Below, piece after piece: positions 1,877 through 52,427 of a stretch of 64,000 nt of DNA (position 1 is its first letter; each line of letters starts with the position of its first letter). The translations under genes and the position numbers were made by a program. This stretch comes from an uncultured bacterium (GTDB lineage Bacteria > Cyanobacteriota > Vampirovibrionia > Gastranaerophilales > Gastranaerophilaceae), in the NCBI GenBank assembly GCA_902777605.1, contig CACYUI010000015.1, positions 1 to 64,000 of the forward strand, in the 5' to 3' direction. A model generated the notes under the pieces. That model saw only the letters and a list, made by a program, of their open reading frames with translations, ran no database searches and was not told the DNA's origin.

Positions 1877-3214
1877 ATTTAGTATTTCTTTTGTGCATTC
1901 AAGCGCAATATCGGTTACCAAATCCATGTCTTCTTTTTCTATAATCAGCGGTGGATTAAAATAAATAACATCGCCTAAAGGTCTTAGGATAACTCCTTTT
2001 TCAAGCGCTTTTTTGTATATTTGATACCCTGTCCTTTTTTTGTAATCAAGAGGTTCTTTTGTTTCTTTGTTTTTAACAAGTTCTATTGCGTTTATAAGAC
2101 CTATGGAACGAACTTCGCCAACATTTTTAAGCGGTAAAAACTTTTCTTTAATAATTTTATTGAAATATTTTCCCTTTTCTTGAGCTTTTTCTATGATTTT
2201 TTCGTCTTTTAAAATGTTCAAAACTTCAATAGCTGCAGAACAAGCGAGAGGATTTCCCGAATAAGTATGAGAATGCATAAAAGCTTTTCCCTTCATATAA
2301 TCGTCATAAAAAGCATCGTAGATTTTTTGTGTAGTTATAGCGATAGCCATCGGCATGTAACCTCCCGTTAAACCTTTTGAAATACACATTATGTCAGGAG
2401 ATACGCCTGCATGGTTGAAAGCCCACATCTTTCCTGTTCTTCCGTATCCTGTTGCAATTTCGTCAGCTATAAGATGTACATTGTATTTGTCACACAGTTC
2501 TCTCAATTTTTTGAGATACAAAGGCGGATAAACTTTCATGCCGGCTGAACCCTGAAGCAAGGGTTCTACTATTATTGCGGCAGTTTCATCTGCATGTTTT
2601 GCGAAAGCTTCTTCTGCCTTTACAAAACATTCGCAATTACAATTATCTCTGCATTTACCAAAAGGACATCTGTAACAATCCAGTCCTTCAATTCTGATAA
2701 CATCCATCATCAAAGGTTTGTACATTTCAGAATACAAATCGACTCCGCCAACAGCAAGCGCACCCAAAGTTTCACCATGGTATGCATCGGCAAGCGCCAT
2801 AAAACGAGTTTTCTTAGGGTTTCCTGTTTGAAGATGGTATTGAAAACTCATCTTTAAAGCCATTTCTACCGCAGCGGAACCGTTATCGGCAAAATTGAAT
2901 TTGCATAAACCTTTTGGTAAAACCTCCATAAGCTTTTGGCAGAGTGTAATTGCGGTTTTGTGCGTAAAATTAGCGAATATAACATGCTCTAAACTATCAA
3001 CTTGTTTTTTTATTGCACTATTTATTCTTGGATTGCAATGTCCTAAGAGGTTGCACCACCATGAACTTATGACATCTTTATAACACTTTCCGTTAATATC
3101 ATACAGATTAATTCCTTCCCCTCTTTCAATAACAATAGGAGGAAGTGTTTCATAATCCTTCATTTGTGAGCACGGATGCCATATATATTTTAAATCTTCT
3201 TCTTGCCAATTCAT
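1871..3214 (-). CDS. bioA: Adenosylmethionine-8-amino-7-oxononanoate aminotransferase
   Basis: A 447-residue PLP aminotransferase of biotin synthesis, converting KAPA to DAPA with S-adenosylmethionine as amino donor. The family opening WHPCSQMKDYE is at residues 12-22. The cofactor-binding DEIATGYGRTGK stretch is near 251-262 and the Schiff-base lysine is in ISKGLTGGY (about K280). A cysteine-rich insertion (CYRCPFGKCRDNCNCEC, about 180-196) is present, as in several low-GC lineages. A GGGAGA ribosome site stands eight bases before the ATG. It lies downstream of the PurD-like gene on the same strand and may share its transcript. bioD is 26 kb away, so the biotin genes are dispersed. Confidence 0.95.
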   Translation of the reverse strand: MNWQEEDLKYIWHPCSQMKDYETLPPIVIERGEGINLYDINGKCYKDVISSWWCNLLGHCNPRINSAIKKQVDSLEHVIFANFTHKTAITLCQKLMEVLPKGLCKFNFADNGSAAVEMALKMSFQYHLQTGNPKKTRFMALADAYHGETLGALAVGGVDLYSEMYKPLMMDVIRIEGLDCYRCPFGKCRDNCNCECFVKAEEAFAKHADETAAIIVEPLLQGSAGMKVYPPLYLKKLRELCDKYNVHLIADEIATGYGRTGKMWAFNHAGVSPDIMCISKGLTGGYMPMAIAITTQKIYDAFYDDYMKGKAFMHSHTYSGNPLACSAAIEVLNILKDEKIIEKAQEKGKYFNKIIKEKFLPLKNVGEVRSIGLINAIELVKNKETKEPLDYKKRTGYQIYKKALEKGVILRPLGDVIYFNPPLIIEKEDMDLVTDIALECTKEILNL

Positions 3215-3280
3215 ACTAAAATCTCCCTATAGAACAATTGTAACTCCAAAATAGAGTATGCGGAAAAGTTTTAAAATAAT

Positions 3281-4072
3281 CTATTTTATTTCATTCAATT
3301 TTTGGTATATTGCAAGTTGTAAAATGTATAGAAAATCGAGTTCGCAATTTGGTTTCAGGAGTTCAAAACTAAAGCCGGTGTTGTATAATATTCCGTTTTC
3401 TTCAATTAGATATGAATTAATAAATCCAATAAAATCAGCCTTTTCTCCTCTTAATAATCGTTCAAGTTTTGAGGAATATTCTTCTAAAAGCGCGGGCATA
3501 AAATTTTTATCAGGGAATGTATAAATTGAATTTCCGTCAAAAAGTGATGTAACAATGTGCTTTTTGTTATGCAAAAATTCTTCTAAATAAACAGTTTTGG
3601 CAATTTCAGGCGAAGTTTCAAAAATTTCTTTTTTTATAGATATAATTTCTTGTAAAGAATTAGCTTTTCTTAAAATTCCGTCTGCTTTAACTAGAACAGG
3701 AAATTCTTGCGGCAAGAGTGTTTGAGGCGGAATATTAATACCGTATTTCGTAAGAAGCGAGTTTGCAAAACTGTTATATAATGCCAAATTTGTCCAATAA
3801 GATGTCGGAGCAAAACAGTTTATGTAGTTTTTGCGCATAACATCTGCAATACCTTCTAAAATCCACTTTTCTTCTTCTACTAGAACAATATCTATTTGAA
3901 GCGCCCTGCATTTTTCGCAAAGTTCTTGAAAAGTATTAAAATTAATTGTAATTGCTCCCTCTTGTTCGGTATCGGATGTCGTGTATAACTTTCTCAAATA
4001 CTTTGAGCTTTTTATATATTCAAGGTATTTGCTTGAATTTTTACATACAATAAGAATATTTAATGATTGCAT
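3281..4072 (-). CDS. Degenerate PurD-like (GAR synthetase-like) protein
   Basis: Starting at the Met at 4072 this encodes 263 residues. A GGAGG site nine bases upstream, embedded in the end of the preceding gene, supports that start over one 24 bases earlier. The middle part resembles PurD: WILEGIADVMRKN followed by a CFAPTS/KYGIN stretch matches the region where PurD has its fixed GPxKxxAxLEgSKxFxKxxMxxxGIP block, then a VLVKADG strand. It is far shorter than true PurD (about 420 residues) and many ATP-grasp residues look lost. It overlaps the PurN-like gene by 13 bases. I infer a repurposed or regulatory paralogue, not the working enzyme of purine synthesis. Confidence 0.5.
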   Translation of the reverse strand: MQSLNILIVCKNSSKYLEYIKSSKYLRKLYTTSDTEQEGAITINFNTFQELCEKCRALQIDIVLVEEEKWILEGIADVMRKNYINCFAPTSYWTNLALYNSFANSLLTKYGINIPPQTLLPQEFPVLVKADGILRKANSLQEIISIKKEIFETSPEIAKTVYLEEFLHNKKHIVTSLFDGNSIYTFPDKNFMPALLEEYSSKLERLLRGEKADFIGFINSYLIEENGILYNTGFSFELLKPNCELDFLYILQLAIYQKLNEIK

Positions 4073-4533
4073 CCCGAACAACCTCCGGAACAACAAGAAG
4101 ATTTTCCTAATAATGTTTTGATTTCAAACTGCTCATTGTCAATTATTTTTTCTGCAACAAGCGGGTATATGGTTTGCTCTAAATAATTTAATTCTTGTTT
4201 CAAAGTTTCCCAACGCATATCAGATGTAATAAAAACAGGATATTGAGCAATAATGCTTTCATTGTGAGATATTGTAATCCCTGTAACTTTAACTCCTTTT
4301 AGTATAGCTTCTTTTTCAGGCTCATTGCAATTAAAAGCCGGTAATAAAGAATGATGACATTTGAGATGGTTAAACCGGCATGGATTATTGTAATTAACTA
4401 ACAATACGAGTTCATGTTTTTCATTAATCTGATTTTCATCTTTGTAACATTCAATATCATAATTTTTAAGTTGATACTTGATAGCATCAATCGTTGGCGA
4501 GTATTCTGAATATAGAATAGCTAAATTTTTCAT
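4060..4533 (-). CDS. Degenerate PurN-like protein with Cys-rich tail
   Basis: 157 residues resembling phosphoribosylglycinamide formyltransferase: HHSLLPAF followed by EKEAILKGVKVTGITIS and SIIAQYPVF. In PurN the motif NIHPSLLP supplies catalytic Asn and His; here it reads KCHHSLLP, so the Asn is replaced. The catalytic Asp of DxGPIIxQ is missing too (HNESIIAQ). The C-terminus ends SSCCSGGCSGCNH, a likely metal or cluster-binding tail not found in PurN. It is sandwiched between the phosphoesterase (five bases upstream) and the PurD-like gene (overlap). Homology by eye is fair; transformylase activity is unlikely. Confidence 0.55.
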   Translation of the reverse strand: MKNLAILYSEYSPTIDAIKYQLKNYDIECYKDENQINEKHELVLLVNYNNPCRFNHLKCHHSLLPAFNCNEPEKEAILKGVKVTGITISHNESIIAQYPVFITSDMRWETLKQELNYLEQTIYPLVAEKIIDNEQFEIKTLLGKSSCCSGGCSGCNH

Positions 4534-4538
4534 TATTA

Positions 4539-5282
4539 CTAAAAATGTCTTTCTTTAGGATTAATTAATGTTGCTGCGAGTCGTTCTTTTCCTATAAAAT
4601 TGCGCCCATTTAATTTCTCAGCAGCTTTTTCGTTATCATATTTTATCAAATGATGTTCATATAGTGTTTTTCCGTCTTCTATTGTTATTGTAAGATAACA
4701 CGATTTAGGTTCTGAAGTAAAAGGTCTGCCGACACTTCCTACATTAACAACTGTTTTCTTGCTCTCTGTTTGAAACCCGCATGGAATATGTGTGTGTCCG
4801 CAAAGAACCACATTGGCGTCAACATGTTTTAGCATTTCATCAAGTTCTGCAAAAGAAGTGTCAGGAAGTATATCTTCATTATTTTTTCTTGGCGAACCGT
4901 GAACGAGCAGCATTGTAATTCCTTGTTCAAATACTTCAAGCTGCATAGGAAGTTCTTTTAAAAACTTTTTTTGTGGCTCAGACAAAACAGATACATCATC
5001 TTTTAGGGCTTCTGCCATAACAGGAGCCTTGTCTTTAAGGCTATTATATAATTCTTCGCTATAATCAGCTATCATTAAATCTGTATTGCCTTGAATCATT
5101 TTATAAGCAGGATCATCTTTCTTTTTCATAAAAAAGTCTACAACTTTATTAGGCTCCGGCCCTGCCATTGCATAATCTCCTAAAACAAAAATTTTATCGC
5201 ATTTTTGTTCTTTAATATCTTGAAGAACAGCATCTAAAGCTTCAACATTTCCATGAATATCAGAAATTACTGCAATTTTCAT
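4539..5282 (-). CDS. YfcE-type metallophosphoesterase
   Basis: A 247-residue calcineurin-like phosphoesterase. Metal-binding motifs appear in order: SDIHGN at the N-terminus (D8, H10), LGDYAMAGP, QGNTD, LVHGSPR and CGHTHIP. This is the YfcE/MJ0936 class, which hydrolyses phosphodiesters with Mn or similar metals; the natural substrate is unknown. The start at 5282 is preferred over 5321 because it places the first motif at the usual position and has AGAGG seven bases upstream. It heads a probable operon with the PurN-like and PurD-like genes and is divergent from ispG, the two starts being only 37 bases apart. Confidence 0.85.
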   Translation of the reverse strand: MKIAVISDIHGNVEALDAVLQDIKEQKCDKIFVLGDYAMAGPEPNKVVDFFMKKKDDPAYKMIQGNTDLMIADYSEELYNSLKDKAPVMAEALKDDVSVLSEPQKKFLKELPMQLEVFEQGITMLLVHGSPRKNNEDILPDTSFAELDEMLKHVDANVVLCGHTHIPCGFQTESKKTVVNVGSVGRPFTSEPKSCYLTITIEDGKTLYEHHLIKYDNEKAAEKLNGRNFIGKERLAATLINPKERHF

Positions 5283-12519: not shown

Positions 12520-12596
12520 TGGTCGGGATGACACGATTCGAACGTGCGACCCCTTCGTCCCAAGCGAAGTGCGCTACCAAGCTGCGCTACATCCCG
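12520..12596 (-). tRNA. tRNA-Pro(TGG)
   Basis: A 77-base cloverleaf is visible on the minus strand. The acceptor CGGGATG pairs with CATCCCG and is followed by encoded CCA. The D-arm is GCGCAGCTTGGTAGCGC. The anticodon stem CTTCG/CGAAG encloses CTTGGGA, giving anticodon TGG. The T-loop is GTTCGAATC. It reads UGG and wobble Pro codons. The 5' third of the gene (bases complementary to 12578-12596) is part of the 97-bp tandem repeat just upstream. Confidence 0.95.
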
Positions 12597-12783
12597 ATAT
12601 TCAATTTTCACTGTACCCGCGCCCTACATGCTACCTCTCCTCGAAAGATACTTAATCTTCCTCGTCGGCAGAGTCAAGCCGGCTACATCCCGATATTCAA
12701 TTTTCACTGTACCCGCGCCCTACGTGCTACCTCTCCTCGGAAGATACTTAATCTTCCTCGTCGGCAGAGTCAAGCTGCGCTAC
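12578..12783. repeat. 97-bp tandem repeat starting inside tRNA-Pro
   Basis: Copy one spans 12578-12674, copy two 12675-12770, and a 13-base third start is at 12771-12783. Each unit begins with the tRNA's D-arm/acceptor bases (CAAGCTGCGCTAC) and continues through its upstream region. The copies differ at only a few bases. The duplication multiplies the tRNA 5' end and promoter region but only one complete tRNA. The rest of 12784-12887 shows only the ilvB promoter. Confidence 0.85.
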
Positions 12784-12872
12784 ACTACACAAAAATATTT
12801 CTTAGGCGAAGTGCATGTTGATATTATCTTAAACAAAGTTAAAAATCAAGTTCTATTATTTATATTTTGATG

Positions 12873-14961: not shown

Positions 14962-15900
14962 TTATTCAAGTTCAGAAATAACCTTTATTCTGCGCTCTCT
15001 ATATAATTCTTTTAAATCGGCATGCTGTTCCCAAAAGCCTTTATAATAACCAAATACTATTCTGCGTTCGTCTGTACTTAATGGTTCACCTGTGCGTTTT
15101 TTTGCAATAATTCTTCTAACATGAGGTGATAGTGTTTTAGTGTAATCGGAAAGAGCTTGCTTGATTTTCGGACAACTATCCCATGTTTTTTGACTAATAA
15201 TTCCTACTTTTTTTGCTTTTTCGGGATTATTTTTATAAAAATCTATCATTTCTTTTTGTTTTTTTGCTCTGTATTCAGGTGTTCTGTGTGCTTCAGCAGC
15301 TTTTGTTAATCTGTATTCCTGAACTCTGGCATCGGCAAAAAGAGCTTTTCTGGATAGTTCGGCAATTCTAGAGTTTTCTTTTTCATCACTCATTTGGATT
15401 AATTTTATGTATGTCCCTGATAATTTTTTAATATTTAATTTTTGATTTAGCCAACCTAACAGGTTTCTGTTTGTAAACCCGTATTCTTGCACAAGTTTAT
15501 CTTGTCCTGTTGGCTTGTACAATTTTTTTAAATAGTCTAGAGTGAAGTTTTCTAGTTGAGTTTTTTCTTCGATTGCTTTTATTGCTTTAGAGCGATTATC
15601 TTTTAGTGTTATGACATCAATAACATCTTTGAATTCCGGAAAAATTGATTTTACTTCATCAAGACTTTTGGCTTCAAAAAGAGGTTTGTATACTTGATTA
15701 TGAAGTTCGAAAAGCTGCGGCAAATTTTTGTTGCCGCTTTCAAGAACTCTTTTTGCTTCGGTTTCAACTCTTTGAGGAAGATATTTTGAATGATTTTTAA
15801 TAACATATTCCAGTGTTATATCTTTTGCTGAACCAAAAGACATGTTAGAGGATTTATAATAGGTTGGTGCTTGATATGAATTTAAAGAGTATATTTGCAT
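14962..15900 (-). CDS. Tagged hypothetical protein, FWxxHxDL family
   Basis: 312 residues. The N-terminus, MQIYSLNSYQAPTYYKSSN then MSFGS, fits the recurring tag. The body is soluble, basic and mostly helical. EAKSLDEVKSIFPEF and the C-terminal GYYKGFWEQHADLKELY have counterparts in the 944-residue protein at 49593 (DAKSIEDVQNFFPDE and TEFWAEHQDLAEEF), so the two are probably members of one lineage-specific family. No enzymatic motif is seen. No good ribosome site precedes the ATG; a run of G lies 13 bases upstream. Confidence 0.65.
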   Translation of the reverse strand: MQIYSLNSYQAPTYYKSSNMSFGSAKDITLEYVIKNHSKYLPQRVETEAKRVLESGNKNLPQLFELHNQVYKPLFEAKSLDEVKSIFPEFKDVIDVITLKDNRSKAIKAIEEKTQLENFTLDYLKKLYKPTGQDKLVQEYGFTNRNLLGWLNQKLNIKKLSGTYIKLIQMSDEKENSRIAELSRKALFADARVQEYRLTKAAEAHRTPEYRAKKQKEMIDFYKNNPEKAKKVGIISQKTWDSCPKIKQALSDYTKTLSPHVRRIIAKKRTGEPLSTDERRIVFGYYKGFWEQHADLKELYRERRIKVISELE

Positions 15901-27128: not shown

Positions 27129-27644
27129 ATGGCAGATAAAATTATAATTTTTTCAGGTAAACAGTATTCAGGAAAAGATACGGCTGCAAAGATTTTGATG
27201 GAAAAAATGCCTGATTATAAACGATGCGCGATGGGTGATATTATAAAAATTGAGTATGGGAGGCTTCATAATATATCTTACGAAGAAATAGAAGCAAATA
27301 AACCTAAATATCGCCAAGGTCTGATAGATTTAGGCAATTGGGGTAGAAGTCAAAGCCCTGATTATTGGCTTGAAAAAATTATTGCGCAGGAAGGTAATAT
27401 TGTTGTAACGGATGTTAGGATAAAACACGAGTACGAGGTTTTTAAAAGGGCAGGCGCAATTTCTATAAGGGTTGAGGCAGACAGGGATTTGAGAGAACAA
27501 AGAGGTGGAAAACTTGTTGGCGAGGATGATGTTACCGAAGTTGATTTGGATGATATTCAAGACTGGGACTTTGTACTCGACAATAACAAGGATTATGAAA
27601 CATTAAAACAAAATGTTTTAAAAATAGTTGAACAATTATCTTAA
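27129..27644 (+). CDS. P-loop nucleotide/phosphomevalonate-type kinase
   Basis: 171 residues with Walker A GKQYSGKDTAA at residues 10-20. The body resembles deoxynucleoside monophosphate kinases and the small phosphomevalonate kinase fold: MGDIIKIEYGR, NWGRSQSPDYWLEK, IVVTDVRIKHEYEVFKRAG (a Walker B-like Asp) and the Arg-containing lid DLREQRGG. Its substrate cannot be fixed from sequence; since ispG shows a non-mevalonate pathway here, a nucleotide substrate is more likely than phosphomevalonate. TAGGAG precedes the ATG. It converges with a four-base overlap on the tagged membrane protein. Confidence 0.7.
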   Translation: MADKIIIFSGKQYSGKDTAAKILMEKMPDYKRCAMGDIIKIEYGRLHNISYEEIEANKPKYRQGLIDLGNWGRSQSPDYWLEKIIAQEGNIVVTDVRIKHEYEVFKRAGAISIRVEADRDLREQRGGKLVGEDDVTEVDLDDIQDWDFVLDNNKDYETLKQNVLKIVEQLS

Positions 27645-29014
27645 ACACTTGCAGCCTCCTTTATTTCAGGTCTTTTAGGGTTAACGACTCTGTTTAAACC
27701 ACTGCCCATTAAACTGAGTACGCCTGATAACAAAGCACTGACAATTTTGCCTTTTACTCCTGAAAATAACAGTGCCGTAAGAGTTAGAGATACACCAAGA
27801 CCTGCAACTGTCGGGAAAATACTTGTTAGCATTTTTGATACTCTTTCCTGTTTCGTATCGGCTCTTCCTACTGCAACACCACCAAGTCCTAAGAAAAACA
27901 GCGCTGTTAATATATCAGTCGGAGCACTCCCGAGCATCAAATCTCGTTTGTTATCAAAATATTCGGCGCATTCGCTAATATTTGCCTTATTTAACTTTTT
28001 GGAAGTATCTTTTACAAATTCTTCTAAAATCTTCTTTTCTTCTGGTTTCAGATGACTTGATAACAAATCCAGAAGTTCATTATAAGCGCCTTTTTGAGTT
28101 TTGCTATCTCCAACGATAGATGATACCACTTTCTGACCGTTTGCACCAAGTTCTGCTCTTTGTGATGCTAAGACATCTTCTGCCCAGTATCCCAGATTAT
28201 CTTTTGCAAATTTTGCATTGTCTTTTATATTATCAATACTACTTGGCATTTTGTATCCGCCAAAATAATCTTTCATTTTTTTCAAAGATTTATCTTCAAG
28301 AGTAGACATCATGTTTTCTTGTATTTTAAGCCGTTCTTCAACTTTAGAAGATGAAAAATATTCTTGCGTTTTCTTAATTTCTGCAAGCTTTTGCTCAAAT
28401 ATTTTGCGCTCGCTTGATGGTAATTTATCTGCGTATTTTGTGAATACTTCATTTAAAGCATCTATATTTTTATTTACTTTTGCGTAATTATTAACAACAG
28501 TTTTTTTACTAACGCTGTCAAATAACTTAGTAATCCATTCATGCGGTTTTTTCATAAACCTTGATTTAACACAAAGCCACTTGAATCCTTCATCTTTTAT
28601 AGTGTTAATGTTGTTTGTAAAATTAAGAACTTTACTTGTGCTGTCTAAAAACTTTTGACCGGAAGAATAAATTTTACTTGTAAAATCACCGTTAATTTTG
28701 GCTTTGTTTCCGGCTTTGGCGGATAAAGTTTTTAATTTGTTAGAAAATCTTGTTAAAAATTTTGGGTTTAAAAGAGCTACAAAAGCACTTAAAACAAGTA
28801 CCGTACTACCAACTTTTATTGCGGTTTTATGTGATTTTTTTGTTTCTTCATCACTTGATTCAGGGACAAAAGTATCAACCGTTGTATTAACTATGTTTTC
28901 AACTTGTTCAATCGGCTTGGTAACAATTTGTGACATAGCATTTTCAGGAGTTTCTTTTTTATCAGAAGCCCTGAAATTAAAGGAATTATTTATATAATTT
29001 CCTGATATAGCCAC
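27641..29014 (-). CDS. Tagged membrane protein, 457 aa
   Basis: Starts with GTG (29014), supported by AAAAGG seven bases upstream. The N-terminus, MAISGNYINNSFNFRASDKK, is a clear tag (FNFRAS). One membrane segment lies at about residues 67-83 (AIKVGSTVLVLSAFVALL) and two or three more near the C-terminus (ILTALFFLGLGGVAVG, VAGLGVSLTLTALLF, VSALLSGVLSLMGSG), with a long charged helical region between. No enzyme motif is seen. A copy of the shared upstream motif is at 29046-29077. Probably a lineage-specific inner-membrane protein. Confidence 0.65.
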   Translation of the reverse strand: MAISGNYINNSFNFRASDKKETPENAMSQIVTKPIEQVENIVNTTVDTFVPESSDEETKKSHKTAIKVGSTVLVLSAFVALLNPKFLTRFSNKLKTLSAKAGNKAKINGDFTSKIYSSGQKFLDSTSKVLNFTNNINTIKDEGFKWLCVKSRFMKKPHEWITKLFDSVSKKTVVNNYAKVNKNIDALNEVFTKYADKLPSSERKIFEQKLAEIKKTQEYFSSSKVEERLKIQENMMSTLEDKSLKKMKDYFGGYKMPSSIDNIKDNAKFAKDNLGYWAEDVLASQRAELGANGQKVVSSIVGDSKTQKGAYNELLDLLSSHLKPEEKKILEEFVKDTSKKLNKANISECAEYFDNKRDLMLGSAPTDILTALFFLGLGGVAVGRADTKQERVSKMLTSIFPTVAGLGVSLTLTALLFSGVKGKIVSALLSGVLSLMGSGLNRVVNPKRPEIKEAASV

Positions 29015-29140: not shown

Positions 29141-29812
29141 ATGTCGAAGAATATATTTATAACAGCTACAGGTACTGATATCGGTAAAACTTATGTATCT
29201 GCTCTTATTGTAAAAAAGATGAGAGAAGAAGGATATAACTGTGGGTATTTTAAACCTGTGCTAAGCGGGGTTGTAGAAAAAGACGGAGTTTTAACAGAGA
29301 GCGATTGTAATTATGTAGTTGATACTGCAAAAATTCCAACAACCGCAAATGAATGTGTCACATATTGGTGGAAAGAAGCGGTTTCTCCTCACCTTGCAGC
29401 AGAGAGATTTGGTGAAGAGATAAATATTGATAAAATAAAAAAAGATTATGAAAAGAAAAAACAAGAATATGACTATCTTTTGGTAGAAGGTGCAGGCGGA
29501 ATTACTTGCCCTCTAAGGCTTATAAACGGTGAAAAATTCTTACTGAAGGATTTAATAAAAGAGTTGGGAACGAACATTATTATTGTCGCAGACGGCGGAC
29601 TCGGAACAATTAATTCTATAGTTTTGACGGTAGAATATGCAAAACAAAATGGAATAAAAGTGGAAGGAATTATTCTCAATAACTTTGAACCTGATAATTT
29701 TATGCATCAAGACAATTTGAAACAAGTTGAATATTTAACAGGAATTAAAGTCATCGCGACTGTAGAAAAAAATCAAAAAGAGATAAATCTTCTTCAAAAA
29801 TATTTTGTATAA
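29141..29812 (+). CDS. bioD: Dethiobiotin synthetase
   Basis: 223 residues. The P-loop is ATGTDIGKTYVSALI at residues 9-23, the substrate region is YFKPVLSGV, and LLVEGAGGITCPL is the conserved GAGG loop. The enzyme closes the ureido ring of dethiobiotin using CO2 and ATP, one step after bioA. AGGGAG precedes the ATG. A consensus promoter begins three bases after the stop, so transcription of the next unit is independent. Confidence 0.95.
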   Translation: MSKNIFITATGTDIGKTYVSALIVKKMREEGYNCGYFKPVLSGVVEKDGVLTESDCNYVVDTAKIPTTANECVTYWWKEAVSPHLAAERFGEEINIDKIKKDYEKKKQEYDYLLVEGAGGITCPLRLINGEKFLLKDLIKELGTNIIIVADGGLGTINSIVLTVEYAKQNGIKVEGIILNNFEPDNFMHQDNLKQVEYLTGIKVIATVEKNQKEINLLQKYFV

Positions 29813-29814
29813 CC

Positions 29815-29844
29815 TTGACATGCGCCTTGAATAAATAGTATACT
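29815..29844 (+). promoter_or_regulatory. Strong consensus promoter of the leader-peptide unit
   Basis: TTGACA (29815-29820), an 18-base spacer and TATACT (29839-29844). This is the best -35/-10 pair noticed in the window. The expected start is about 29851, just before the leader peptide. Confidence 0.75.
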
Positions 29845-29863
29845 TAACTCACAAGGAATGATT

Positions 29864-29932
29864 ATGACAAAATTACACAATGTATTAACAACTTCATCCT
29901 CCTCATCCAAGTTTCTTTCGGGACTTGAATGA
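29864..29932 (+). CDS. 22-aa Ser-rich leader peptide
   Basis: ATG at 29864 with AAGGA six bases upstream, reading MTKLHNVLTTSSSSSKFLSG then LE and a stop. Codons 9-15 are Thr-Thr-Ser-Ser-Ser-Ser-Ser (29888-29908), written with TCA and TCC. A run of identical amino-acid codons in a tiny frame between a strong promoter and a terminator is the classical form of a ribosome-stalling leader (as in thrL, hisL). It is unlikely to work as a protein. The serine run suggests response to charged tRNA-Ser. Confidence 0.6.
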   Translation: MTKLHNVLTTSSSSSKFLSGLE

Positions 29933-30005
29933 TTTTGATGTGTAATTTTTAGGATAAGTTTTAGAAAATCAAAAAAGTCTCGATAAATTTAGTTGGGACT
30001 TTTTT
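29918..30005 (+). promoter_or_regulatory. Candidate attenuator: competing antiterminator and terminator
   Basis: Terminator: arm 29971-29981 (AAAAAAGTCTC) pairs with 29995-30005 (GGGACTTTTTT) over 11 pairs, loop 13. Antiterminator: TCGGGACTT at 29918-29926, inside the end of the leader peptide, pairs over nine bases with 29975-29983 (AAGTCTCGA), using the same 5' arm. A ribosome stalled on the serine codons would leave 29918-29926 free and block the terminator; one that reaches the stop would cover it and allow termination. Confidence 0.55.
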
Positions 30006-30029
30006 GTTGTGTAAATTTTGGAGAAGGTA

Positions 30030-31520
30030 ATGAATTTAAGAGTAAATAATATAAGTTTTAAAGGCCCATTGGATGGAATGCTTACTACAGCACTCAGAAC
30101 TTGCGATACGAATGAAGTAGTCAACGCTGTAGGCTTAGATATTGGTGCAATGGTCATTCCAAGAACTTATTATGATACAAAAGCTCGCAATAAATACGCA
30201 GGCGGTGAAACTTTTTTTAGAGAAATAAGCGGAACATTTATAAATTGTCTTTCTGCAGGACTTTTGGCTCAACTTATATCAAAATATGCTGCAAAAACTG
30301 TTGAACCCAAAACAAATATAAATCCTAAAAGCTGGTATACAAACGATTCTCTCAAAGTTCTGCAAGCCGCGTGGAATAAAGGGAAAAATACGGAAGAATA
30401 TGTGAAAACCGTACTTGAAAACTTGTCAGGCAGAGATGGTTATAATATAAACAAATTTAATGATATAAATTGGAAAAATGTTGAATGGATAGATGAAAAA
30501 CAATGGGATAAGATTGAATGGAAAGATAATAAATATAAAAACATCCATCATAATCTAAAAACTAAAGAAAATATCACTAAGGCTTTAACCGAAATTATTG
30601 AAAATAAAAATATTCATAATAACGACAGAAAAAATCTTCTAACAATTATTGAAGCGAGAATAACAAATGCTCTGAAAGCCGGAAGACAAACAGAAGTAAA
30701 TATTGACGGCAATAAATTTGAAGCAGTATTGTCTAATATTCTTCGTGATGCTTGTGATATGGGAAGAGATATTTTTACTAACAAAAATGTTAATGCTAAA
30801 AAAGCAATTGAAAAAATCACAAAAGTTAATAAAATCAAAGCTTTTGGCGCAATTGGCGGAGCATGTCTTTTAGGTCTTACAAACCAATTTATTAACAGAA
30901 AAATAACAGAGAAGAGAACTGGCAAAAAAGGTTTTGTGGGAGATGTGGATTTTTGCGAAGAAGTTAGAAATGAACATAAAAAAGATGATATGCTAATATT
31001 CAAAAAAATTGGTGCAAGTATTCTTATGGCAGGCATGGTTTTTAGCGTAATGAAGGTTAAAAACTTAAAAGAATTTGCTAAAAAACTTGAGTTTACAGGT
31101 CCTATTACAAGCGGAAATGCTATAAAAACCGTTTATGCAGCTAATATTATAGGACGATTTATGGCAGCAGATAATGGAACAGAACTCAGAGAATCAATGA
31201 CAAGAGATTATTTGGGCTTCCTAAACTGGCTTGTATTTGGTGGTTTTGCAGCTAAAGGTGTTGCAAATCTTCTTGACAGAAAAGGAAAGGATTTGTTCAA
31301 CTATACTAAAAAAGGAAAAGGGTTAAAACATTGGTTGAACGAAATGTCGCTAAAAACTCATAACGAAATTGCAGCCAAAGGAAAAGCTTTTGTAAAGAAA
31401 AATATTTGGAAACTTAACCTTGCTCACGCATCAGGTATAGCATACTCTGCAATAACGCTCGGTGTTCTTCTTCCTATGCTTAATGCAAAAGTTACCGAGC
31501 ATAAAAGCAGGGGGAGGTAA
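30030..31520 (+). CDS. Tagged membrane protein, 496 aa, attenuator-controlled
   Basis: Start at 30030 with GGAGAAGG upstream. The N-terminus MNLRVNNISFKGPLDG is the most typical tag in the window. A charged, Asn/Lys-rich middle (with a WKNVEW, QWDKIEW repeat) lies between hydrophobic segments near residues 70-88, 275-292, 330-350, 395-410 and at the C-terminus (GIAYSAITLGVLLPML). It appears to be an inner-membrane protein with several helices. I recognise no family. It sits 25 bases beyond the candidate attenuator terminator, so its expression may depend on serine supply or translation rate. Confidence 0.65.
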   Translation: MNLRVNNISFKGPLDGMLTTALRTCDTNEVVNAVGLDIGAMVIPRTYYDTKARNKYAGGETFFREISGTFINCLSAGLLAQLISKYAAKTVEPKTNINPKSWYTNDSLKVLQAAWNKGKNTEEYVKTVLENLSGRDGYNINKFNDINWKNVEWIDEKQWDKIEWKDNKYKNIHHNLKTKENITKALTEIIENKNIHNNDRKNLLTIIEARITNALKAGRQTEVNIDGNKFEAVLSNILRDACDMGRDIFTNKNVNAKKAIEKITKVNKIKAFGAIGGACLLGLTNQFINRKITEKRTGKKGFVGDVDFCEEVRNEHKKDDMLIFKKIGASILMAGMVFSVMKVKNLKEFAKKLEFTGPITSGNAIKTVYAANIIGRFMAADNGTELRESMTRDYLGFLNWLVFGGFAAKGVANLLDRKGKDLFNYTKKGKGLKHWLNEMSLKTHNEIAAKGKAFVKKNIWKLNLAHASGIAYSAITLGVLLPMLNAKVTEHKSRGR

Positions 31521-38618: not shown

Positions 38619-40587
38619 ATGAAAAATTTAAGAAAATTGTCAGCACTTGTTTTAAGTACAGTATTTGCAACAATGCAAATCTCAATGGCAAACCCCATCG
38701 ATACAGGCTTAGGAACACAAAACGGCGGAGCTGTAATTAACAATACAACCGGTGGTTTTGCAGGCTTGGATGTCGGAACACTTCAATGCAGTAAACGGAG
38801 CAAACGGTTTAACAGTATTGAATACGGTAAACCAGGGAATGACCAATGTATATGGTCAAATAAATGCAAATAGCGGTATCGGAAAGTTGATAATATCGAA
38901 CCCAAATGGTGTATTATTTGACGGTGCAAAATTTACAACAGCAGGCGATTTATTAATCACAACTCAAGCTATTTCAGGATTGAATGATATTGACAATGCA
39001 AAATTTAATAAAATGTACACTTCAGACAAAAATCTTATTCCTGTAAAGATTTTAAATAATTCAGATTTCCAAGTAGGTGGTGAATATACAATTGTTGCAC
39101 CACGCATTCACGCAGAATCTTCAACTGTAGCAGCAAATACTTTAAAATTAGTAACTGCAAACGGTCAAGATTACTTATCATTAGGAGCTAACACTCCTGC
39201 AGGAAACAGAGCAGTAACTACATTGAAAGCTATGTATGTAGATGGCAACTTAGAAATAACAAGTGATGCCGGTGCAGTTCAAATAACAAACGGCGGTACA
39301 ATAAATGGTGATTTTACTGCTGATACCGGTAAAAGCAACATGGTTTGGTTGAACAAAGAGAGCGGCGGAAATAGATTAACAGTTAACGGTGATGTTAATA
39401 TTAACTCAAACGGTGAACACTTAACATTAAGGAATGTTGATGTTGACGGTGATGTTAATATGACCAATGTAGGCGGTTATGTTGATTTAGGCAACGCTGA
39501 TATAACAGGAAATGCAACATTAAAAACAGAGGGTGTTGAAACTGGTAATAAATATCATCACTTTGTGCATGTAATTGGCGAAACTAATGTTGATGGCAAT
39601 TTAAATATTGACTCTTCCCAGAACATACACATTGGTGGTTATAAACTTGACGCAAATGATCCGAATGCGAAAGGTGTTCTTGCAGATGGTAAGTTAACGG
39701 TTGGCGGTGATTTGAACGCTCATTCAGAGGTAGGTCATATCACAACCACTATTGATACATCTGCAAAAAATATTACATATAAAGCTGATAAATTAAATAT
39801 TCTTACAGACGGTAAAGCTACATTGAAAGCTGATACATACAACTTTACATCAAATGGTTTTATCGGTGGTATAACAGACAAAGATTTAAGATCAGCTGAT
39901 GACAGAATTTCAACATTGATGGAAAATTATACATTTATTCCTGCCGATATTGAAGGTCACGGGTATGTAAATGTTGATGGCGGTAATGTTGTTGCTATCA
40001 ATACTCCGAAAGTTTCTCCTGCAGGAAATGATGTTCAAGTATATATCAAATCAAAAGATGATGTAAAAGTAACAGGTGCAAATACAGGCGTTTTGAATAT
40101 CACAGCTCCTAATAAGAGAATTGATATTGAAGGACCAAATGTTCATGCTAAAAATATTAATGTTGGTAATGAAACAAACTATTTAAAAGTTGAATTTGAT
40201 GGCAGAGATTACACAACGAACTATACAAATATTAAAGACGGTCAAGTAGTAACAATTGCACCGGATGAAAAAATTACATATGAATTAGCAGATGGCGGTT
40301 ATAACCAACCTACTTTGCAACCAAGTGCAAATACTACATACTTAATCGGACCTGATCCTGTTCCGCCACCACCTCCAGGACCGGAGCCGGAACCTGTAAC
40401 ACCTCCTAATCCCGGAGATGAACCTGGCAAACAGATTGTACAATGGGTTCCTGAAGATGTAACCAAAGCTCCAGTTAGCACTCCTGTAGCATTCGCAGCA
40501 GACTTGGATGACGATGAAGAAGGTGCACCAGTTAGAAAGAATGTAGACGGATCAGTAACGGTTGTCAGAGCAATGCCGATGATGTAA
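38619..40587 (+). pseudogene. TpsA/FHA-like exported protein, frameshifted copy
   Basis: Closely related to the next gene (40771). A signal peptide (MKNLRKLSALVLSTVFATMQ) and the first 50 residues are followed at 38780 by the absence of 20 bases that are present in the sister gene, so frame one ends at 38873 and the rest continues in another frame to 40587. The body has the haemagglutination-activity/TPS motif NPNGVLFDGAKFTTAGD, then beta-helix-like repeats rich in Asn, Gly and Val, a Pro-rich linker (VPPPPPGPEPEPVTPP) and a conserved end (QIVQWVPEDVTKAP, DLDDDEEGAP). AAGGA precedes the ATG. Unless rescued, the product is a 84-aa fragment. Confidence 0.75.
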
Positions 40588-40770: not shown

Positions 40771-42687
40771 ATGAAAAATTTGAAAAAGAAATTGTCAGCA
40801 GTAGTTCTCACAGCAGTATTTGCAACAATGCAAGTATCAATGGCAAACCCCATCGATACAGGCTTAGGAACACAAAACGGCGGAGCTGTAATTAACAATA
40901 CAACCGGTGGTTTTGCAGGCTTGGATGTCGGAACAGACAAGGGTGAAACATTAAACTTCAATGCAGTGAACGGAGCAAACGGTTTAACAGTATTGAATAC
41001 AGTAAACCAAGGAATGACTAATATATATGGTCAAGTAAGTGCAAACAGCGGTATTGGTCAATTGATTATTTCAAACCCAAATGGTGTATTATTTGACGGT
41101 GCAAAATTCACAACTGCAGGTGATGCGTTAATTACAACTCAACAGATGACAGCAACATTTAATAGCGGCATTATGGATGTTTCAAAGGTTCCTACAACTG
41201 CTAATGTTGATTTTGTAACTATCAAAGATTCAAATATTTCTGTTGGAGGTGAATTCCACATTTTAACCCCTTCTGTAAATGTTGTTAAATCAACAATCAA
41301 AGCAAATGACGGAGTAAAATTTGTTACAGCAAATGGTCAAGATTATCTATCAGTTGGAAATGCAGCACCAAAACAAGCTGTTCGTTTAGAATCAGTAAAT
41401 ATAGACGGTGATGTTTATATTGTATCTGATAAAGGTGCAGTCGCTACAGTTGGTGGTGGTGAAATTAACGGTAATTTGAATATTAAATCAGACGATGTTG
41501 TTGGTCTTAACTTTACAGATAACGGCAAGATTCTCCATGTAACAGGTGATGTTAATGCAGAAGGAAACGGCTGGGCAATGTACGCAAGAAATACAAAAGT
41601 TGACGGCAATCTTAATATGGAAAACGGCGGCGGTTTCTTAGAAGTCGGTAATGTTAGAGTTGGCGAAAATATGAACCTTAAAACCGTTGCTAAATCAGAA
41701 AATGATAAAGGTTATAAACACTTTGTCCATGTAGTTGGTGATACAGAAGTCGAAGGCGATGTAAATATTGATTCTAAAGACAACATTCATATCGGAAACT
41801 ACAATTTTGAAGAAAAAAGGTTGTTAGACGGTAACTTAAAAGTTAGTGGTAACTTAACAGCTCACGCTCATGACGGTCATGTTACAACAACGATTAATGT
41901 TCAAGCAAACAAAATAAGCTATACTTCAGATAATTTGAATGTATTAACAGATAAAGATTCTGTTTTGACAGCAAATGAATACGAATTTTCATCAAATGGC
42001 TATATCGGTGCAATTGGTGATTACGAAGAAGCTACAGGTACTGAAAGAATAATATCAGTAATGGAAAATTACACATTCATTCCAAAAGACTTAAAAGGTA
42101 ACGGATATACTCAAATAGCAGGCGGCAAAATTACAAAACTTGATGCAAACGGTAATGCATACATCTTATCAAAAGATGATGTAACTCTAACAGGAGCAAA
42201 TGCTCAAGACATAAACATTACAGCTCCTAATAAGAGAATAGATATTACAGGACCTGATGTTCACGCAAATAATATCAATGTCGGCAACGAAACAAACTAC
42301 TTAAAAGTAGATTTTGAAGGCAGAGATTTTACAACAAATTATACAAACATAAGAGATGAAAAAGTTGTAACAATCAGACCTGACGAAGTAATCACATATG
42401 ACTTGGCTGACGGTGGCTATAACCGACCAACTCTAAAACCTGATACAAATACTACATACTTAATTGGTCCGGATAGAGAGGTTCCACCACCTCCAGATAG
42501 AGTAAACCCACCCGATGAACCTGGCAGACAGATTGTACAATGGGTTCCTGAAGATGTAACCAAAGCTCCAGTAAACACTCCGGTAGCATTTGCAGCAGAT
42601 TTGGATGACGATGAAGAAGGAGCACCGGTTAGAAAGAATGTAGACGGATCAGTAACAGTCGTAAGAGCATTCCCGATGGGTAAATAA
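40771..42687 (+). CDS. TpsA/FHA-like exported beta-helix protein
   Basis: 638 residues with a signal peptide (KKKLSAVVLTAVFATMQVSM, cleavage near ANP) and a start supported by GAGGA. The N-terminal third is a two-partner-secretion domain: NAVNGANGLTVLNTVNQGMT and NPNGVLFDGAKFTTAGD. A long run of beta-strand repeats (for example VDGNLNMENGGG, DGHVTTTINV) should form a right-handed beta-helix. A Pro-rich linker and an acidic, conserved C-terminus end the protein. TpsA proteins need a TpsB outer-membrane transporter; none is in the window. Likely surface or secreted adhesin-like protein. Confidence 0.8.
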   Translation: MKNLKKKLSAVVLTAVFATMQVSMANPIDTGLGTQNGGAVINNTTGGFAGLDVGTDKGETLNFNAVNGANGLTVLNTVNQGMTNIYGQVSANSGIGQLIISNPNGVLFDGAKFTTAGDALITTQQMTATFNSGIMDVSKVPTTANVDFVTIKDSNISVGGEFHILTPSVNVVKSTIKANDGVKFVTANGQDYLSVGNAAPKQAVRLESVNIDGDVYIVSDKGAVATVGGGEINGNLNIKSDDVVGLNFTDNGKILHVTGDVNAEGNGWAMYARNTKVDGNLNMENGGGFLEVGNVRVGENMNLKTVAKSENDKGYKHFVHVVGDTEVEGDVNIDSKDNIHIGNYNFEEKRLLDGNLKVSGNLTAHAHDGHVTTTINVQANKISYTSDNLNVLTDKDSVLTANEYEFSSNGYIGAIGDYEEATGTERIISVMENYTFIPKDLKGNGYTQIAGGKITKLDANGNAYILSKDDVTLTGANAQDINITAPNKRIDITGPDVHANNINVGNETNYLKVDFEGRDFTTNYTNIRDEKVVTIRPDEVITYDLADGGYNRPTLKPDTNTTYLIGPDREVPPPPDRVNPPDEPGRQIVQWVPEDVTKAPVNTPVAFAADLDDDEEGAPVRKNVDGSVTVVRAFPMGK

Positions 42688-49592: not shown

Positions 49593-52427
49593 ATGTACAT
49601 TAGTAGAATCAGTTACGGAATAGAAAACAGATATATAAATAAGAATAAAAAATTTCAAAAACGAGTTGCAACACCTACTTTTGAAGCGAGAGTTGATAAA
49701 GGTATGGAAAGGTTTTATGAATTTAACTCTAAAAGAATCCCAACTACAATGAAATTGTATTTAGATAGTTTACAAGATAAATTTTCTATGACTCCGCTTC
49801 AGGCACAAAAAAATGCATATTTAAAATTAGAAGATGCAAAATCTATAGAAGATGTTCAAAACTTTTTCCCCGATGAAGAATTGTTTATCTATCTTGAAAA
49901 AGCCAAAGATACAAAAGCAACTAGCGGAATTTTGGGAATATATCGAGAGTTTAAAGAATTGTATGATAGTGTTCTCAAAAATGGAGAAGATTTAACCTTA
50001 TATATCTTAAAAAAAATATTTCTTGAAGCAAAAATGCTTGATGAAATTAATAAAGATTTAGATAAAGACTTAAACGAAGATATAAAACTTGAATTTCAGC
50101 GCAGGTATCCTAACGGAGAATATTTACACTCTTCCACATTAAAATCACTCGGAATTTATAATCCTGATACAGCATATTTAAATTCTTTGAAATTTACGCG
50201 TGATGGTTATTCTGATGAGTTTGGAGCAAAGATTTCCGAAGCGCAGCTAAAATATTGGAATAGCTTATCAGAAGATGAAAAATTTGAAATCTTAAGCAAA
50301 AGGTGCGAAGGCAGAGATAACTGGTGGAATTCTCTCAGCTATGATGAAAAACTTGAATATGCGGCAGGAATTGAGTCAGAAGAAGAACTTTATAAAAATT
50401 ACAAAAAATATGTAAATTCTGAAAAAAGAAGAATAAGAAAAGAAACAGAATCAGGAACGCTACAAGAAAATGAAAAAATAGAAGCACCAAAACACAAAAA
50501 AATAAAAGTTGGTGATACAAAACTTCAAGACAGAGATATTTTTATACTTTGGATGAAAAAAAATCTTGATAAGTTTTATTCACGACTTTCTGAAGCTGAT
50601 AAAGATTCTGTTCACATAAAAAGAGTTCATAGGCTTGCCGAACGCTGGCAAGAAATGACACCACAGGAAAAAACCGAACTTATTGATAAGATGAGAGCCG
50701 GTAGAGAACCGGGAAGATTTATTATGATAGATGCATGGAATCATTCGCGTGTTCTTATAAGAGAACTCTCTGAGTTTCTCAAATCAAAACAAATTCTAAA
50801 GCCGATAGATGTTTTATATGATTCGGCTGAGTTTAGCAGTTTCCAATCGCAAGTTATGACTGAGTTTTGGGCAGAGCATCAAGATTTGGCGGAAGAATTT
50901 GGTAAAAATATTCACAGAGCATATCTTAGAGTTGAAGAATCGTTGCGAAGAGGACAATTCCAAGATTTAAAACAAGAAATTTTAAGAGATCGGGCATATA
51001 GAATTAAACTTTTGGAAAGAGAGCGTTTGCAAGAAGAGGCGGAAGCAAAAAGACTGGCAGAAGAAGCAAGAAAACTTGAAGAGATGAAATCTAATCCGAA
51101 TGCATACAAATATGAATTTATTGATGCATATACTAAACAGCAAAATTCTACGGGCTTGTTGCCTAAAAACTATATTAATGATGTTACAAATGCAATGATA
51201 GAAATGTATCCTGAGCATATAATAAAAGAGTATACAGAAGCAATAAAAGCCGGTACAACAATTGGTGATGCTGCATACGAAAAAATGATGAAATGCAAAC
51301 CAAGTCCTGAATTTGAGCGTTCACAAAGGGCGATGGAATTAGCTCTTGCAGATGAATTCTCTTCCAAATGGTCAGGAATCGATGTTTATCAACTCAGCCT
51401 TGTAATGTTAATTCCTATGTTAGCTGCAAGAATATCTGCTGAAAAAGCAAATAATACTTCAAAAAGTGAAAAATTAGACTTAAAACGGATAGATTATTTG
51501 TATAATGAATACAGAAAAGACTTGAGTGAACAAGAGCTTGATGATATTGCAAAAAATTATTTTTATCTCAAAGAAAATATTAATGATTCTGAATATGAAG
51601 CTGTTTTCAAGAAATTAAAATCATATATTTCAACATATGGCAGAAGCATTTTGCCTCTTTTTGCTGCACAAAGTATCAAACCTGTAGAGCAAAAAGCGGC
51701 ATTAAATGAAAAATTATTGAATCTAATGCCACAAGAATTGAAAGAAAAACTGGATTTTGAATATAGAAATGCGGAAGATATATTATTGAGCGACAAAATA
51801 CAAACTATAAATACATTGTTTGCAAAAAGATATAATTATTTACCTGATGATGCAAGAGTAGCTTATATATCTGAACTGGGACCAATACTTATGTCTGAAC
51901 ATGACAAAGGACAAACAGATATTATAGACAATTATATAAGCCGCTTGCAAAAAAAATCAAATTCTAAGAACGCAGAAAACACACAAGAAGGGCGCCTAAT
52001 AAATATTTCTAAAAATACTATGTTATATCCAAATAAATTAAAGATGCTTGCTATAGAGCAAGTTATAGCAGATGAATTATTTAATGTTTGTAATGATGAA
52101 AGTGTTTATGCTTTAGAATTTGAAGTATTATGCAACCTTTTAGAGATAATAATGTCTTCAAAAGTTGATAAAAATAAATCATATATAAAAATAAATAATA
52201 TGAATAATAAAATGTTTATTCTATCAAAAGATGCTAAAGTTTTTAATTTCAAAAAAGCATATTCAGAATATATAAAAGAATTTAATGAACTTCTAACAGA
52301 ACTTCCAGAAGGAAAACAATTAGAAGCAGAAGATATTTTGTATACATTAAATCCTAAAGAAAACAGACCTTTAAGAGATAAATATATTATACAAAGACTT
52401 GAAAAATATGGTTTCCATATGAATTAA
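49593..52427 (+). CDS. Tagged 944-aa helical protein, FWxxHxDL family
   Basis: Start supported by AGGGGAA. The N-terminus MYISRISYGIENRYINKN runs on to ATPTFEAR, a long version of the tag. The protein is soluble, helical and highly charged; a basic/acidic coiled coil lies near residues 455-500 (ERERLQEEAEAKRLAEEARK-like). DAKSIEDVQNFFPDE and TEFWAEHQDLAEEF match blocks in the 312-residue protein at 14962. WNSLSEDEKFEIL and WNSLSYDEKLEYA form an internal repeat, and QEMTPQEKTELIDKM is a related unit. No catalytic motif or membrane segment. Possibly a large scaffold or secreted effector-like protein, without direct proof. Confidence 0.6.
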   Translation: MYISRISYGIENRYINKNKKFQKRVATPTFEARVDKGMERFYEFNSKRIPTTMKLYLDSLQDKFSMTPLQAQKNAYLKLEDAKSIEDVQNFFPDEELFIYLEKAKDTKATSGILGIYREFKELYDSVLKNGEDLTLYILKKIFLEAKMLDEINKDLDKDLNEDIKLEFQRRYPNGEYLHSSTLKSLGIYNPDTAYLNSLKFTRDGYSDEFGAKISEAQLKYWNSLSEDEKFEILSKRCEGRDNWWNSLSYDEKLEYAAGIESEEELYKNYKKYVNSEKRRIRKETESGTLQENEKIEAPKHKKIKVGDTKLQDRDIFILWMKKNLDKFYSRLSEADKDSVHIKRVHRLAERWQEMTPQEKTELIDKMRAGREPGRFIMIDAWNHSRVLIRELSEFLKSKQILKPIDVLYDSAEFSSFQSQVMTEFWAEHQDLAEEFGKNIHRAYLRVEESLRRGQFQDLKQEILRDRAYRIKLLERERLQEEAEAKRLAEEARKLEEMKSNPNAYKYEFIDAYTKQQNSTGLLPKNYINDVTNAMIEMYPEHIIKEYTEAIKAGTTIGDAAYEKMMKCKPSPEFERSQRAMELALADEFSSKWSGIDVYQLSLVMLIPMLAARISAEKANNTSKSEKLDLKRIDYLYNEYRKDLSEQELDDIAKNYFYLKENINDSEYEAVFKKLKSYISTYGRSILPLFAAQSIKPVEQKAALNEKLLNLMPQELKEKLDFEYRNAEDILLSDKIQTINTLFAKRYNYLPDDARVAYISELGPILMSEHDKGQTDIIDNYISRLQKKSNSKNAENTQEGRLINISKNTMLYPNKLKMLAIEQVIADELFNVCNDESVYALEFEVLCNLLEIIMSSKVDKNKSYIKINNMNNKMFILSKDAKVFNFKKAYSEYIKEFNELLTELPEGKQLEAEDILYTLNPKENRPLRDKYIIQRLEKYGFHMN

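Follow-up and report, generated by a model that had tools for sequence, protein, structure and literature searches.

Why would the gene for a membrane protein be preceded by a promoter, a short reading frame rich in serine codons and a terminator? This arrangement occupies positions 29815-30029 of a 64-kb stretch of DNA (hereafter the window). The window belongs to a genome of 2.0 Mb in 43 contigs (G000) that lies within Candidatus Gastranaerophilales, and homologues of the downstream gene in named public genomes are mostly labelled Candidatus Gastranaerophilales or Melainabacteria. A first-pass annotation had likened the region to trp/his/thr attenuation with competing helices, a comparison that is supported by covariation in both helices.

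Architecture and covariation of the leader

All features of the locus lie on the forward strand. A promoter scan identified a sigma-70 type promoter, TTGACA-N18-TATACT, with 11 of 12 consensus bases (29815-29844), and a TTGAC...TATA-type promoter is present at the equivalent site in orthologues. The Shine-Dalgarno sequence AAGGAA (AAGGA core, 29853-29858) precedes a leader peptide ORF of 22 codons, MTKLHNVLTTSSSSSKFLSGLE (29864-29932 including the stop codon), whose position and serine run are kept in every orthologue examined. A leader Shine-Dalgarno sequence was found in several orthologues, and others look nearly leaderless, with a start 8-12 nt past the -10 box. The regulatory run itself consists of five UCN serine codons, TCA TCC TCC TCA TCC (29894-29908). 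Immediately 3' of this run, segment 1 (CAAGTTTC, 29908-29915) forms an 8-bp hairpin with segment 2 (GGGACTTG, 29920-29927). The 5' arm of the antiterminator (TCGGGACTT, 29918-29926) pairs with segment 3 (AAGTCTCGA, 29975-29983), which is common to the antiterminator and the terminator, and the intrinsic terminator formed by segments 3 and 4, followed by a T run, is assigned to 29971-30005 by pairing and covariation. The controlled gene (30030-31520, ATG at 30030) carries the Shine-Dalgarno sequence GGAGAAGG (30020-30027) and, according to its ORF and predicted structure, encodes a helical membrane protein of 496 residues. Upstream, bioD ends at 29812; downstream, a gene for an RND-type pump is convergent, so the controlled gene is the sole gene of its transcript.

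The promoter, the 22-codon leader with five serines, and the nine-base pairing that shares the 5' arm of the terminator had all been proposed in the first-pass annotation, and its positions and bases for promoter, leader, serine run, terminator and gene start agree fully with the sequence. Two elements were absent from it. The first is the 1:2 hairpin (29908-29927), which completes a four-segment layout. The second is an outer helix of 11 bp, in which a strand inside the leader ORF (29869-29879) is the perfect complement of 29939-29949. Sequence comparison identifies the latter as a conserved post-stop motif, TTTTGATGTGTAGTTTT-like in serine leaders and TTTTGCGTGCAG-like in cysteine leaders, and the duplex between leader and motif outperforms shuffles (empirical p<=0.05) in 33 of 59 serine leaders. 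As a stand-alone search pattern the motif was unusable, with 44 matches versus 43 in the control.

The calculated energies are -6.4 kcal/mol for the 1:2 hairpin, -16.7 kcal/mol for the antiterminator and -12.9 kcal/mol for the terminator, and the leader RNA folds better than shuffled sequences (z -2.66). The final minimum free energy structure of the free RNA 29917-30012 is the terminator form, which implies that antitermination requires the antiterminator to form ahead of the terminator, as it does in other attenuators. As judged from the bases, the region has several hallmarks of a ribosome-mediated transcription attenuator, namely a codon-run leader ORF whose translation is predicted, competing helices, a promoter and a terminator.

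With these parts, a switch can be proposed as follows. When serine is ample, the ribosome would clear the serine run, reach the stop codon and cover segment 2, allowing the 3:4 terminator to form and to end transcription ahead of the gene. Under a shortage of charged tRNA-Ser, the ribosome would stall on the run and cover segment 1, segments 2 and 3 would form the antiterminator before segment 4 is made, and RNA polymerase would read on into the membrane-protein gene. The gene would thus be induced by serine shortage, and its product would have evolved to need little serine.

Comparison with related genomes had been suggested as a check on the serine run and these helices, and the attenuator reading withstood it. 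In 18 orthologues from the genus of the window, which are 64-72% identical, the UCN serine run followed by equivalent hairpins is present in 18/18, and both helices show compensatory changes in the resulting 19-sequence leader alignment. For the terminator, 91.8% of cells are paired and double-sided changes occur in 9 of 13 pairs; its 25 compensatory cells were matched by 0/500 shuffles. The antiterminator has 88.9% of cells paired, double-sided changes in 5 of 9 pairs, and 12 compensatory cells, again matched by 0/500 shuffles. The covariation score of each helix was also reached in 0/500 shuffles, and a shift of the partner strand by one column abolished the signal in both. The co-change of segments 2, 3 and 4 fits a single segment that has to pair with either of two partners. 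The 1:2 protector hairpin is paired in 84% of cells, with covariation not above that of shuffles. The competing helices were tested singly because the RNAalifold consensus of the alignment recovers the terminator alone.

Searches of the window with Rfam covariance models gave no leader, T-box or riboswitch match, and only a tRNA exceeded the threshold. A covariance model built from the element itself matched most of the gene-carrying genomes of the genus as well as further genera of the family; many low-scoring matches (E>0.001) were plain terminators and were discarded. The serine model also matches a short ORF and terminator before an ornithine carbamoyltransferase-like gene (L201, G135:C19), a possible arginine leader.

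Serine, cysteine and histidine leaders

The serine attenuator described in the first-pass annotation belongs to a larger set, whose members are read as sensors of serine, cysteine or histidine. Among 88 homologues in genomes of the order, 59 have serine-run leaders, 28 have cysteine-run leaders (the leader types of L119 and L121 being assigned by hand) and one, the distant homologue L024, has none. A scan of contigs with a single protein query returned no homologue, and a scan with the protein alignment found the loci from named public genomes. At all 80 of these loci, part of which lie on the same contigs as in the set of 88, a run leader is present under a loose rule (67 serine and 13 cysteine). 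Under a stricter rule, leaders were detected at 76/80 loci, compared with 3/80 on the opposite strand and approximately 2% of shuffles. Leaders occur at homologous loci far beyond chance.

Cysteine-run leaders have the same layout as serine leaders and a related post-stop motif. On the tree of the homologues, a single deep split separates the two types apart from one swap, in which L099 (G057) carries a serine leader within the cysteine clade with strong support. Both types are present in the genome of the window, where the second copy of the gene family follows a cysteine-run leader (L039, G000:C22:39400-41020) and adjoins bioB, and the serine-led copy adjoins bioD. The cysteine-type leader model also matches upstream of a PLP enzyme of cysteine and methionine metabolism (PF01053, E 3e-121) and the cysK-like gene that comes after it in two genomes, G139 and G134 (loci L150 and L155). 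The same element thus also precedes genes for cysteine metabolism, which is where a true cysteine attenuator would be expected.

The histidine class was found through weak matches of the serine covariance model. Leaders with a histidine run (e.g. MKNLLQKHHHTHHINP) precede another family of membrane proteins of approximately 400 residues and were present in 38/38 family members examined. In the genome of the window, the histidine-run leader MTLLKKHHHTHRHPFGA (L111/L210, G000:C4:96647-98000) lies before a membrane protein of 393 residues with zero histidines. A comparison of the serine/cysteine-led and histidine-led protein families with hhalign gave a probability of 62% (E 7e-5), by which a relation is only hinted at.

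Further leader-like ORFs were seen around this second family. One locus (L255, G140:C93) has two successive short ORFs, each with a run of four histidines, before a divergent protein of the histidine-led type that contains one histidine. Upstream of most distant paralogues (L240-L253, L256-L259; G000:C13 about 2300-4700) lies another type of short ORF, which ends in ...LMNLxWGL and a stop codon (e.g. MNKHSKKLMNLKWGL), in which the amino acids are kept and codon changes are synonymous. This ORF looks like a conserved nascent-peptide leader rather than an amino-acid run.

The diversity of these leaders bears on whether the serine run senses anything. It could be the by-product of a structured UTR that acts as a constitutive terminator or read-through element, as UCN-rich pyrimidine tracts could serve RNA structure and many of the leaders lie in AT-rich DNA. 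However, such a reading leaves little reason for the reading frame to be kept, with its stop codon over or just past segment 2, for run length to change by whole codons, or for the codons to switch among serine, cysteine and (in the other family) histidine with the layout unchanged. We consider this the least probable of the explanations weighed here, and very improbable in itself.

Codon choice and residue depletion

Within serine-leader runs, 361/363 codons are UCN and 49% are UCC, compared with 5.6% UCC among serine codons of the window. In the controlled genes, AGY makes up 37% of serine codons when the leader is of the serine type and 23% when it is of the cysteine type (26% in the window). 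Serine starvation in B. subtilis slows ribosomes at UCN and not at AGY codons (PMC3862929), and the UCN-only runs together with the shift to AGY in serine-led genes match this behavior. Attenuation theory similarly expects leaders to rely on those codons that respond most strongly to shortage (PMC1183508). Part of this codon choice may also reflect pairing constraints on the leader RNA.

The controlled proteins are poor in the residue that their leaders encode. Serine content is 4.59% in serine-led proteins and 6.96% in their cysteine-led homologues (p=5.5e-12), and cysteine content is 0.12% (0-2 residues) in cysteine-led and 0.65% in serine-led proteins (p=4.8e-13); as leaders of one type group together on the tree, independent events are fewer than these p values suggest. 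The contrast between serine-led and cysteine-led proteins rests largely on one deep split and one leader swap, and the swapped member L099 has 6.1% serine in spite of its serine leader. Among 35 distinct histidine-led proteins, 26 have no histidine, seven have one and two have two; distant paralogues without a histidine leader have 1 to 11. The protein encoded in the window contains 3.2% serine, the lowest value among window proteins of at least 300 residues. The argument for depletion is thus the same rule across three amino acids and not the p values. Low cognate bias has been described for enzymes of amino acid biosynthesis (PMC4209129), and its presence here suggests that these proteins are needed exactly during shortage of the amino acid concerned.

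The same observations bear on an antibiotic- or stress-responsive leader of the erm, mef or ABC-F type, in which stalling by a drug, and not by serine shortage, would relieve termination. Resistance genes can also be placed under short leader ORFs with terminators (e.g. PMC4335068). In the present leaders, however, a run of a single amino acid (serine, cysteine or histidine) is what is conserved, with variable flanks and no fixed arrest motif, and both the UCN-only codons and the depletion of the product tie the leader to the amino acid. An antibiotic or stress response is therefore highly unlikely here, if slightly less so than an element that senses nothing.

The mechanism is well supported by its parts, their conservation, covariation, codon choice and composition bias. 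We are confident that 29815-30029 acts as a ribosome-mediated transcription attenuator sensitive to serine by way of charged tRNA-Ser for UCN codons, that shortage induces the low-serine membrane protein, and that the cysteine and histidine versions act alike. By this mechanism, the cysteine-led homologues and the histidine-led second family would give the same response to cysteine and to histidine. We infer that the switch operates in vivo, with its product aiding serine uptake or scavenging.

Function of the controlled proteins and relation to known systems

The controlled gene had been described as not biosynthetic, and the serine-led protein is indeed no recognizable biosynthetic enzyme, with no match in Pfam or, by fold or sequence, in the PDB. 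AlphaFold2 gives confident helical predictions for both the serine-led protein (pLDDT 87, pTM 0.84) and the histidine-led protein (pLDDT 82, pTM 0.71). With the serine-led model, Foldseek returned no match at E<=0.001 (best E 0.59, a glutamate transporter homologue with a probability of 0.04), and the best VIA-align hit (Z 6.0, a sodium-pumping pyrophosphatase) is at the background level for helical models. Fold comparison gave no convincing PDB relative of the histidine-led model either; neither Pfam nor fold comparison found similarity to a known transporter, although a shared fold may have been missed, and phage records contained no match of the controlled protein. A loose motif with F-x-G/A or the like (NISFKG, NMSFGS, NSFNFRA) recurs at the N-terminus of several uncharacterized proteins of the window, the controlled one among them (14962-15900, 27641-29014, 30030-31520 and 49593-52427).

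Gene content offers another view of function. Among 114 genomes of the family, 32 have hisD and 63 have the histidine-led gene, and the two occur together in only 2 (Fisher p=1e-11; p=8e-4 by genus majority); they are mutually exclusive inside genera g57 and g76. The genome of the window lacks hisD as well as a full-length serA. The link between the serine-led gene and loss of serA is weak and not significant (6/13 vs 20/101 genomes, p=0.07), and the equivalent test for cysteine is uninformative because cysK is nearly universal. The near exclusion of hisD and the histidine-led gene points to amino-acid acquisition as the function, which is best supported for histidine and extends to serine and cysteine by analogy. 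On the best reading, these amino-acid-specific attenuators control proteins for scavenging, probably by uptake. As the models have no convincing PDB relative, a transport role is an inference.

A different role is conceivable, in which a real, serine-sensing attenuator controls a protein that is no importer. Serine shortage would then be a growth-phase or host signal, and the protein might act at the surface, in stress or in colonization. B. subtilis reads slow UCN decoding as a starvation signal, and serine exhaustion serves entry into biofilm formation (PMC3862929); the lack of transporter homology and the loose link of serine-led genes to loss of serA are also in line with such a role. However, a growth-phase signal leaves unexplained the parallel cysteine and histidine versions, the depletion of each sensed amino acid in the proteins, and the near exclusion of the histidine-led gene and hisD. 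We regard this alternative as rather unlikely, though considerably more plausible than drug sensing or an inert leader. Returning to acquisition, we see roughly even prospects for the broader proposal that Gastranaerophilales possess an unrecognized kind of acquisition protein in serine, cysteine and histidine versions, each under its own codon-run attenuator, so that the codons and the missing residue together spell the substrate.

The mechanism is of a known kind. The trp, his, thr, leu and ilv attenuators share with this locus a promoter, a leader ORF with a codon run, segments 1-4 and a U-rich intrinsic terminator. They differ in that here serine is sensed, a single membrane-protein gene rather than an enzyme operon is controlled, and the element belongs to Gastranaerophilales and matches no Rfam leader family. 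To our knowledge, attenuation in response to serine is new, and so are the membrane-protein targets, the leaders that switch identity and the coupling of leader type to residue depletion. The first-pass annotation knew of no attenuator linking serine codons to such a gene, and a search of the open-access literature likewise found no description of this serine attenuator system.

Mycobacterial polycysteine leader ORFs, reportedly cysteine-responsive according to the title of Canestrari et al. 2020, are a close counterpart of the cysteine-led homologues. PMC13236596 describes them as acting by translation attenuation of cysteine biosynthetic genes. Short and often leaderless ORFs with a cysteine run are common to both systems, whereas a transcription terminator and, in most cases, a membrane-protein gene follow the leader here. 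The SinR sensor of B. subtilis shares the reading of serine shortage as slow decoding of UCN and not AGY codons, but its UCN codons lie within a repressor gene, and neither a leader nor a terminator is involved (PMC3862929). T-box riboswitches have been used to predict transporter substrates, and in both cases the identity of the regulatory codon predicts the substrate of an uncharacterized membrane protein (PMC2494555); in contrast to T-boxes, the present element has no specifier loop or T-box, and the ribosome rather than uncharged tRNA would be the sensor. Low cognate bias likewise means that an amino acid is sparse in the proteins needed when it runs short; PMC4209129 describes it for the last biosynthetic enzymes, with transporters unmentioned, whereas here it concerns membrane proteins and tracks leader type.

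If this interpretation is correct, classical attenuation extends to a little-known uncultured lineage of the gut and rumen, serine joins the amino acids sensed by attenuation, and two large membrane-protein families gain a testable function and substrate. Comparison of leader codons with the missing residue could then serve as a general predictor, from sequence only, of the role of an uncharacterized protein.

Two other features were observed in the window. Near-identical direct repeats (CATCCCGATATTCAATTTTCACTGTACCCGCGCCCTAC...) at 12600-12790 adjoin a tRNA gene (12523-12596), and two adjacent and similar large repeat proteins of the filamentous-haemagglutinin type are encoded at 38752-40587 and 40771-42687.
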